From positions 1 through 34,267 of the IMG/VR virus record IMGVR_UViG_3300032282_001237: a DNA stretch of 34,267 nucleotides. The stretch is one strand, 5' to 3'. The position numbers were made by a program, and so were the translations under genes. Shown piece by piece: positions 11,962 to 15,285 of this stretch (within the stretch, counting starts at the first letter, position 1; every line of letters begins with the position of its first letter). The stretch comes from a virus. Under the pieces are notes generated by a model. That model made no database searches. It saw only the letters and a program-made list of their open reading frames with translations, and was not told the origin of the DNA.

Positions 11962-11990
11962 ACTATACATCATATAATCTATATCCACAA
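11962..11990 (-). promoter_or_regulatory. Possible internal promoter of the recombination operon
   Basis: On the minus strand TTGTGG (11990-11985) and TATAGT (11967-11962) are 17 bases apart, with the -10 box at five of six consensus positions and the -35 box at three. Transcription would begin near 11955, about 50 bases before the next ATG. The -35 box lies within the 3' end of the upstream gene. This is a match by eye only. Confidence 0.35.
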
Positions 11991-12257
11991 TACTTTATTA
12001 TTTGTATTATTTGTTTTTGGTGTTGTATTCTTGCCACTATCTTTTGGGTAAAGTTTAGCCCTACAAGACTCTCTTTCTTGCATTGTGAAGTCTGGACTTA
12101 TATTTACTAGACTACAATCTTTAGTATAAGGTATATGAGAGACATAACCCATTAGGTAGATGAGACTTACTAAAGTAAGTATCAGACAAGTTACAAGTAC
12201 GTACTCGTCTCTTTCTACACTCTTTAAAATAGAGACTGCTTTTGTTGTCATTGACAT
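11979..12257 (-). CDS. Small membrane-anchored protein (92 aa)
   Basis: The start MSMTTKAV was chosen because AGGAG lies eight bases before it; an in-frame GTG further upstream overlaps that site. Residues of about 18-40 (YVLVTCLILTLVSLIYLMGYV) form one membrane helix, leaving a C-terminal part with CSLVNISPDF and ERESCRAKL outside the cytoplasm if the N-terminus is inside. The two Cys residues could form a disulphide. It is the first gene of the second leftward unit and has an unusually long leader. Function unknown. Confidence 0.65.
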   Translation of the reverse strand: MSMTTKAVSILKSVERDEYVLVTCLILTLVSLIYLMGYVSHIPYTKDCSLVNISPDFTMQERESCRAKLYPKDSGKNTTPKTNNTNNKVLWI

Positions 12258-12461
12258 TAGAACCACTCCTTATAATGTACTTCAGGTACGGAAAATTAAG
12301 CATATAAACACCAAACCCCTTATATATATAAAGGGGACTGAGTCTTTTTTACAGACTAACACCATCGTTTATCAGGTTAGATTACCTGTTTATCCCCATT
12401 AACTGTGTCATGTCGTTGGGAGAGCTGGGTTACAAGCTCCGTATATATACAGATTCTAGCC

Positions 12462-12560
12462 AATAAAAAAACCCTTAATTAGATTCTATGTTCAAGCCCT
12501 TTTTGGCTGTTTACCATCAAGGCATAGAACCTAATTAAAGGTTTTATATACAGGCTTGAA
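12462..12560 (-). promoter_or_regulatory. Putative transcription attenuator (22-bp helix, T7 tract, possible pseudoknot)
   Basis: Arms at 12523-12544 and 12469-12490 are inverted repeats of 22 bases. Read as minus-strand RNA, the two imperfect positions become U-G and G-U pairs, so the whole helix is paired; read as plus-strand RNA they are A-C mismatches. On the minus strand the helix is followed by a run of seven T, as in an intrinsic terminator. The 32-base loop has an inner AGCC/GGCT hairpin. An upstream UUCAAGCC (12560-12553) is complementary to GGCUUGAA in the loop (12498-12491), which could form a pseudoknot or a competing antiterminator pair. Confidence 0.65.
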
Positions 12561-12574
12561 TCCGTATGAATTGA

Positions 12575-12603
12575 ATACTACAAAAAAAAAGAGAGACTGT
12601 CAA
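12575..12603 (-). promoter_or_regulatory. Sigma70-like promoter embedded in a terminator
   Basis: On the minus strand a perfect TTGACA (12603-12598) is followed after 17 bases by TAGTAT (12580-12575, four of six consensus positions). The -35 box covers the loop and closing base pair of the intrinsic terminator at 12582-12611, and the terminator T tract forms half of the spacer. Transcription would start near 12568, directly ahead of the attenuator-like helix. Confidence 0.5.
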
Positions 12604-12611
12604 GTCTCTCT
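12582..12611 (-). terminator. Intrinsic terminator of the ardC operon
   Basis: A perfect 9-bp stem AGAGAGACT/AGTCTCTCT with a four-base loop is followed on the minus strand by eight T (plus the last T of the stem). It lies 25 bases after the stop of the last small gene of the leftward ardC unit and should end that transcript. Confidence 0.88.
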
Positions 12612-14436: not shown

Positions 14437-15285
14437 CTAGGCTACTTGTTTTAATGCTTCAAAGTTTACAATGTAATCCGTAGATTTTTGAGCATATGCA
14501 CTAGCTTTAAATATCATTTTGTTATCATTCTTTAATGCTTTTAACCATGATTGAATATAACCCTCATGTCTAATATCACCTTTGACAGCATACTTTTCAC
14601 ATAAAAATGCACTACCTAACTCAGCTATTAATTCTTCAAAGGCGTATGCTGTATCTGCAAACCTCTTACCCTTAGTTCTGTCTAGTCTATGTTTAGCACC
14701 AGACCAGTGAGTTAACTCATGTAGTAATGTCGCATAATATCCGGCTTCATCGTGAAAGTCTGATTTAACCGGCATATTAATGTAATCTTCACTCGGTCTG
14801 TAATATGCACTATTTCCTGAATGTCTAATACTTGCACCAGTATTGCTAACCATATTGTCAATGTCTACATTGTTTAAGAATGGTTTATCTTCAACATCCC
14901 TAGGCTTAATCTCGATTCCCTCTACCTGCTCGGCATTGAATACATAATATGTCTTCATGCAAGCATAAAAAGACTCTTCACTTTGATTAGTATCCGGATT
15001 AATGCTATTTGTTTTTACTGGTGAATAAAAGACAATCGCTGTACCAGTCTCACCTTTACGCACATTAGCACCTAATTGTTGCCATTGTTTAAAAGAACCC
15101 CAGACATTAGACTGAAAGCCGGACATCCCTAAGATAACTCTATTGATACCGTTGTATTCATTACCGCTATGGATATTCTTATCTAAAGTGTTTTCTGTAT
15201 GCCAAGGTTTAATCCATGGAATACAACCAGTTTCTAGTTTTTCAATGATTCTATTTGTAACTGTATCGTATATATCAGTTTTCAT
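14437..15285 (-). CDS. ardC: ArdC-type antirestriction protein with zincin metallopeptidase domain
   Basis: ArdC proteins bind single-stranded DNA and protect incoming DNA against host restriction. Residues 1-125 match the ArdC N-terminal domain (MKTDIYDTVTNRIIEKLETG, PWIKPW, YNGINRVIL, WGSFKQWQQLGANVRKGE, YYVFNAEQ). The C-terminal half is a zincin-like domain with HELTH at 189-193 holding the catalytic Glu190, and EELIAELGSAFLC at 217-229 offering the third zinc ligand. The length of 282 residues is normal. It is the first gene after a consensus promoter in the divergent control region, so it should be made at once after DNA entry. GGGGAG precedes the ATG. Confidence 0.92.
   Translation of the reverse strand: MKTDIYDTVTNRIIEKLETGCIPWIKPWHTENTLDKNIHSGNEYNGINRVILGMSGFQSNVWGSFKQWQQLGANVRKGETGTAIVFYSPVKTNSINPDTNQSEESFYACMKTYYVFNAEQVEGIEIKPRDVEDKPFLNNVDIDNMVSNTGASIRHSGNSAYYRPSEDYINMPVKSDFHDEAGYYATLLHELTHWSGAKHRLDRTKGKRFADTAYAFEELIAELGSAFLCEKYAVKGDIRHEGYIQSWLKALKNDNKMIFKASAYAQKSTDYIVNFEALKQVA

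Follow-up and report, generated by a model that had tools for sequence, protein, structure and literature searches.

Introduction

Among described RNAs, Betaproteobacteria-1 RNA (Rfam RF02932) is a candidate sRNA for which we found no described function in the literature searched. Intrinsic terminators and attenuators consist of a hairpin with a GC-rich base that leads into a U-tract, a short distance downstream of a promoter, and an attenuator always lies between that promoter and the genes it regulates, on their strand. The c4 immunity RNAs of phages P1 and P7 and the CI immunity RNA of P4 are short phage RNAs from early leaders, whose complementary segments vary from phage to phage in a compensated way. 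The pRNA of phi29 is a phage RNA with covarying complementary loops. Riboswitches are marked by a conserved ligand-binding core sequence.

Here we describe an RNA carried on the minus strand of an IMG/VR phage record (IMGVR_UViG_3300032282_001237, positions 1 to 34,267; this entire 34,267-nucleotide stretch is called the window). Its 5' domain, module 1, combines a long hairpin, P2, with two complementary "kissing" segments, K1 and K2, and a second structured domain, module 2, follows. Betaproteobacteria-1 RNA takes the position of module 2 in 11 sister loci, although its Rfam model lacks module 1. In sequence, module 1 has the features of an intrinsic terminator: a stable hairpin with a GC-rich base and a U-rich tract directly after it. 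Unlike known terminators and attenuators, it has a stem of 22–25 bp, a loop of 22–47 nt and conserved kissing between a loop and a bulge, and it has neither a leader peptide nor a known ligand class. Whereas the partners of the c4 and CI segments lie elsewhere in the leader or mRNA, both partners here lie within one 105-nt domain. The RNA differs from phi29 pRNA in fold, phage group and gene neighborhood, and the terminase and portal are those of another group of phages. Across clades module 1 retains its shape and not its sequence, in contrast to a riboswitch core. An earlier note on this DNA had supposed that the element has no known family name, and indeed no Rfam family matches it.

Results

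Collection of related loci

About 300 loci were collected by three scans with YqaJ-like exonucleases of the window's lineage, one scan with a more distant relative, and DNA patterns; they are numbered with an L prefix. Near relatives can be aligned across the entire interval, and a covariance model of P2 and the apical hairpin P3 detects the element in relatives at 62–66% identity, the E-values of models built here being rough. A structural scan that required a long hairpin and a T-tract, and not kissing, returned 129 elements; in 116 of them K1 and K2 pair over an uninterrupted 6 bp or more (3 of these were judged spurious). Collapsed to distinct elements, the set numbers 65, among which K1 takes 39 different sequences, and 26 more elements bring the number of K1 sequences to 54; all such counts come from elements that share descent and are not independent. 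Negatives from our first genome search were set aside, as its model, R1, had failed to detect known copies.

A search for similar DNA in annotated phages gave no match to the window. At the protein level, two relatives came up in GenBank, MW202753 and MW202825, and one further relative sits in a beta-proteobacterial bin. The terminase and portal place the phage in a freshwater group, a label that rests on the origin of the GenBank relatives in Manatee Spring and on our reading of sample identifiers. The window contains no tRNA or tmRNA.

Anatomy of the kissing-loop domain

Module 1 spans 12567–12465 on the minus-strand RNA, from hairpin H1 through P2 to a U7 tract. Its parts are as follows.

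12548–12567, minus strand: H1, 5' hairpin (ATACGG/CTGTAT) at the predicted RNA 5' end (stem around K1 in homologues)
12553–12560, minus strand: K1, UUCAAGCC, the kissing segment carried by the H1 loop (complementarity, conservation)
12523–12545, minus strand: 5' arm of P2, a 23-bp helix (folding, covariation)
12499–12522, minus strand: P3, apical hairpin with an AAACA loop (folding; length and sequence vary between clades)
12491–12498, minus strand: K2, GGCUUGAA, the kissing segment that abuts the P2 3' arm on its 5' side (complementarity, conservation)
12468–12490, minus strand: 3' arm of P2 (folding, covariation)
12465–12471, minus strand: U7 tract closing P2, terminator-like (sequence, conservation)

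P2 pairs 12545–12523 with 12490–12468 around a 32-nt loop. The earlier note had rightly described a fully paired helix, which is 23 rather than 22 bp long; its seven closing T are also present, at 12471–12465, slightly off the 12462 it had given. Four U of the tract lie inside the helix. The folding energy is −51.5 kcal/mol, compared to −22.8 ± 3.4 kcal/mol for shuffled sequences (z = −8.5), and P2 is the longest hairpin in the window on either strand, where no second copy of it was found. No Rfam model reaches the gathering threshold in the window, where most of the weak hits are to microRNA precursor models that fit the long hairpin.

The complementarity to the loop noticed just upstream of the helix is exact, with TTCAAGCC (12560–12553) the complement of GGCTTGAA (12498–12491); the upstream 8-mer lies within H1, a hairpin absent from the earlier description. 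A stem of at least 4 bp surrounds K1 in 97% of 65 homologues, compared to 36% when the flanks are shuffled, so H1 is real. Taken together, the anatomy of the kissing-loop domain is well supported.

P2 covaries and is built for the minus-strand transcript

Covariation in related genomes, on which the earlier note had staked its proposal in advance, was found both in P2 and in K1/K2. Eight of the 23 P2 pairs are changed on both sides, and 94.6% of cells remain paired. The two non-Watson-Crick positions of P2 in the window, the only ones it has, become G-U in the minus-strand RNA alone, as had been noticed. The homologues agree: in fixed register, P2 contains 144 G-U against 24 A-C, and in 65 of 65 distinct elements the helix is longer when G-U is allowed than when A-C is. 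This count led us to reject a plus-strand RNA. The T-tract is likewise conserved, in 79 of 82 elements found without requiring T (background, 7.7%); two elements that have K but were scored low for T in a later table proved on inspection to carry T5–T6.

The kissing pair changes its letters and keeps its pairing

K1 and K2 share 6–8 complementary bases in every phage examined while the letters change. All distinct homologues pair with their own partner, in runs of 6–10 bp, and pairing with other elements is exceptional (non-cognate runs of at least 6 in 39 of 1482). The seven K columns are all variable on both sides, with 98.9% of cells paired compared to 48% in shuffles, a figure inflated by the selection of K1. 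Because K1 was chosen by its pairing, a fairer test fixes the position of K2 from P2 alone. Located in this way, K2 has a 7-mer complement in its own 5' flank in 35 of 39 cases, compared to 1.1% for the flanks of other elements and 1.2% for shuffled flanks. The K1/K2 duplex energy is −11.5 against −3.3 kcal/mol. An ordinary terminator with chance complementarity would account for the hairpin and the U-tract, which do exist; conservation of cognate pairing and P2 covariation refute it, and we give it next to no weight.

In close contrasts, K pairs change at about twice the rate of P2 pairs (14.7% versus 7.4%), and several pairs of phages have an identical P2 with 2–3 compensated changes in K. 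This pattern shows a sequence that is free to vary, or is diversifying, while complementarity is strictly kept, and by itself it does not prove positive selection. One conceivable explanation, which we consider distinctly improbable, is that K1/K2 acts as an identity tag: an RNA copy would capture a nascent RNA of the same type and set its termination, allowing the phage, with nothing more than RNA pairing, to sense its copy number or exclude close relatives. The K pair would then diverge more quickly than other parts of the RNA, with selection acting on identity and not on sequence.

The K1 and K2 8-mers are each unique in the window, where no other target for either was found; across 65 loci, K matches elsewhere in the same locus number 17 compared to 27 expected, and with no surplus we see no second K target. 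In this respect the RNA departs from c4 and CI, whose complementary target lies elsewhere in the transcript, and no Rfam family connects it to them. In 53 of 65 elements the end of K2 is at most 1 nt away from the P2 3' arm, and K2 lies outside the helix, so kissing and P2 are able to coexist. The suspected pseudoknot thus gains the backing of covariation, but the competing state that was offered alongside it does not fit. Pairing in cis looks geometrically possible: by our estimate, H1 and the kissing helix together reach along about 12–14 bp of the 22–25 bp P2, and the linker from K1 to P2 is 5–16 nt.

The private, fast-changing loops could also join RNAs to each other, K1 of one copy pairing with K2 of the next in rings or chains like those of phi29 packaging RNA, which would explain why each phage has its own pair. 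Yet both segments sit on one short RNA for which cis pairing appears feasible, the genome lacks a phi29-like organization, no Rfam match links the two RNAs, and the element is linked to recombination rather than packaging genes. We regard such multimers as very unlikely.

A promoter fused to an upstream terminator

Directly upstream of H1, two features overlap.

12590–12611, minus strand: intrinsic terminator (9-bp stem, T9) that serves the leftward genes upstream, with the −35 box of the next promoter in its loop (invariant in near relatives)
12575–12603, minus strand: sigma70-like promoter TTGACA-17-TAGTAT, with the terminator T-tract as spacer and a predicted start near 12568 (sequence)

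A promoter site scoring at least 10/12 lies within 60 nt upstream of H1 in 38 of 51 same-strand homologues (0.4 expected), and in most same-strand elements the 5' hairpin begins within about 10 nt of the promoter. The arrangement at 12611–12575, with the −35 box in the loop and the T-tract as spacer, recurs with other sequence in L028, which has TTTACA in the loop.

A second structured domain follows P2

Downstream of the U-tract, the minus strand encodes module 2.

12384–12445, minus strand: module 2 core, comprising hairpin P4 with an ACCCA loop (12439–12422), P5 (12421–12417 with 12398–12394), then AUAAAC (covarying helices; 63.5 bits in the window)
12316–12373, minus strand: rest of module 2, comprising GAUAAACGAU, an AGUCU/AGACU hairpin, a terminal CCCC..GGGG hairpin and a U-rich tail, likely the 3' end of the long RNA (sequence)

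The same series, an ACCCA-loop hairpin, a UCCC/GGGA stem, AUAAAC and GAUAAACGAU, follows P2 at near-constant spacing in both orientations of the element, and its first two helices covary. A covariance model of the core matches many further loci, including some without the kissing element; module 2 was not recognized in some homologues (L002, L009). We had first favored the idea that module 1 ends the transcript and module 2 is unrelated, and dropped it once module 2 was found recurring downstream. Between module 1 and the next genes, promoters show no excess (5 versus 4.2 expected), so read-through is the probable route to module 2.

In the 11 sister loci, ten from phages and one on a phage-like contig of a beta-proteobacterial bin (L331), Betaproteobacteria-1 RNA occupies the place of module 2, shortly after P2, at 66–97 bits. 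It directly follows the kissing domain in L114:3858–3973, L109:1084–1203, L139, L104, L122, L148, L112, L155, L145, L017 and L331. The window itself gives no match to the RF02932 covariance model, even at E ≤ 10. Module 1 is absent upstream of bacterial copies at the six chromosomal loci inspected, and the neighbors of bacterial copies were uninformative. The isolated Acidovorax phage AP1 (OM049504) carries an unannotated DNA-level match in the gap between the primase and the next gene (L340:3001–3099); this copy lacks module 1, for which the room is too small.

Other arrangements were also seen. In L010, L012 and L015, modules 1 and 2 stand apart, with a frame of about 80 codons (MTRPIITLKK...) between them. 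The RNA domain 3' of P2 is of yet a third type (GUAC-CCCGCACGAUAGUA ... GCGAUAAACGGG), with no Rfam match, in L111, L115, L117, L121, L124, L136, L163, L018, L031 and L102.

The element is not tied to one orientation

In the window, the RNA is followed on the same strand by a small gene and then by recombination genes.

11979–12257, minus strand: first gene after the RNA, a small membrane-like protein with no family match (open reading frame)
11499–10597, minus strand: YqaJ/RecE-like exonuclease, downstream of the first gene
10342–9506, minus strand: RecT-like gene, after the exonuclease
9282–9025, minus strand: SSB-like gene, after the RecT-like gene

The earlier note had read the element as a switchable terminator of this operon, that is, a riboregulated attenuator. 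In its favor, the element lies on the operon's strand, 0.6–2.2 kb ahead of it, in 71 of 92 loci, the window included, and three terminator-like sites precede the first gene. But in the other 21 loci it is opposite to YqaJ, so it is not simply the attenuator of the recombination operon, and module 2 with its terminal hairpin intervenes. We consider this reading unlikely. The flipped loci fall into two clades on the YqaJ tree and have a conserved TTGCAY-17-TTTAAT-like promoter, read by eye.

An ArdC-like antirestriction protein is encoded upstream in the same early region (14437–15285, minus strand), and in several relatives too the RNA is located between antirestriction and recombination genes. 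In MW202753.1, a hypothetical coding sequence that may be spurious (UOF81610.1; 32238–32669, or L102:2972–3403) overlaps the RNA gene.

Both the flipped loci and the promoter bear on the possibility of a stand-alone, trans-acting sRNA, for which P2 and the U-tract would be an ordinary, efficient terminator and kissing would provide stability and compactness. Its targets would be in the host or the phage, and module 2 would arise by leak or processing. In favor of such an sRNA, the element has its own promoter and U-tract, occurs against the operon as well as with it, and in most same-strand cases has its 5' hairpin close to the promoter. However, module 2 recurs at fixed spacing with no extra promoter, K shows neither surplus matches nor a second target, and the P3 sequence is not kept between clades. 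We find this account possible, though on the unlikely side.

The 5' domain exists as two alleles

Ahead of module 2 we found either the U-tract, H1 and kissing pair together, or a long helix that lacks every one of them. The alternative domain is a helix of 20–25 bp with a 3' bulge; the U-tract, 5' hairpin and kissing pair are absent, and the promoter type and module 2 are shared. It occurs, on the minus strand, in L184, L047, L186, L194, L213, L235, L244 and others. Our allele table reads 48/3/2/17, and its five exceptions are artefactual, arising from the slice (L010, L012, L003; K recorded in the structural scan) or from helix over-extension (L310, L316). On the YqaJ tree, the alleles replace each other at least seven times. 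The association suggests that kissing serves the terminator, although the exchange of whole modules keeps it from being proof.

Discussion

Our preferred explanation, held tentatively and with somewhat less than even confidence, is that the element belongs to a dedicated early noncoding transcript of these phages, as its 5' domain, and that the kissing-loop terminator sets whether a short (about 105 nt) or a long RNA is made. The upstream promoter would start the RNA at H1. As the P2 5' arm, P3 and K2 emerge from RNA polymerase, the H1 loop would pair with K2; the P2 3' arm would then close the 22–25 bp hairpin with the U-tract at its base, forming an intrinsic terminator. Termination would yield a compact RNA, about 105 nt long and protected at either end, and read-through a 250–330 nt RNA that includes module 2, or Betaproteobacteria-1 RNA in the sister phages. 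In the window's clade, read-through RNA could extend into the recombination operon. Kissing would most likely tune the terminator by fixing K2, and hence the inner end of P2, while P2 closes. Termination at the U-tract, its partial nature and the effect of kissing on it are all inferred.

Several points count against this explanation. The allele association may reflect the exchange of whole modules rather than mechanism, and a 22-bp stem may simply be a good constitutive terminator, in which case module 2 would rarely be made. Inspection revealed no antiterminator helix mutually exclusive with P2, with which K1/K2 is compatible.

The kissing-loop domain is a structured 5' RNA domain new to Rfam that is carried by many freshwater phages, and Betaproteobacteria-1 RNA gains a phage context. 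A kissing pair that is compensated and specific to each phage amounts to a natural compensatory-mutation experiment. It opens direct tests of whether loop-bulge kissing tunes termination and whether RNA pairs serve phages as private identity tags.
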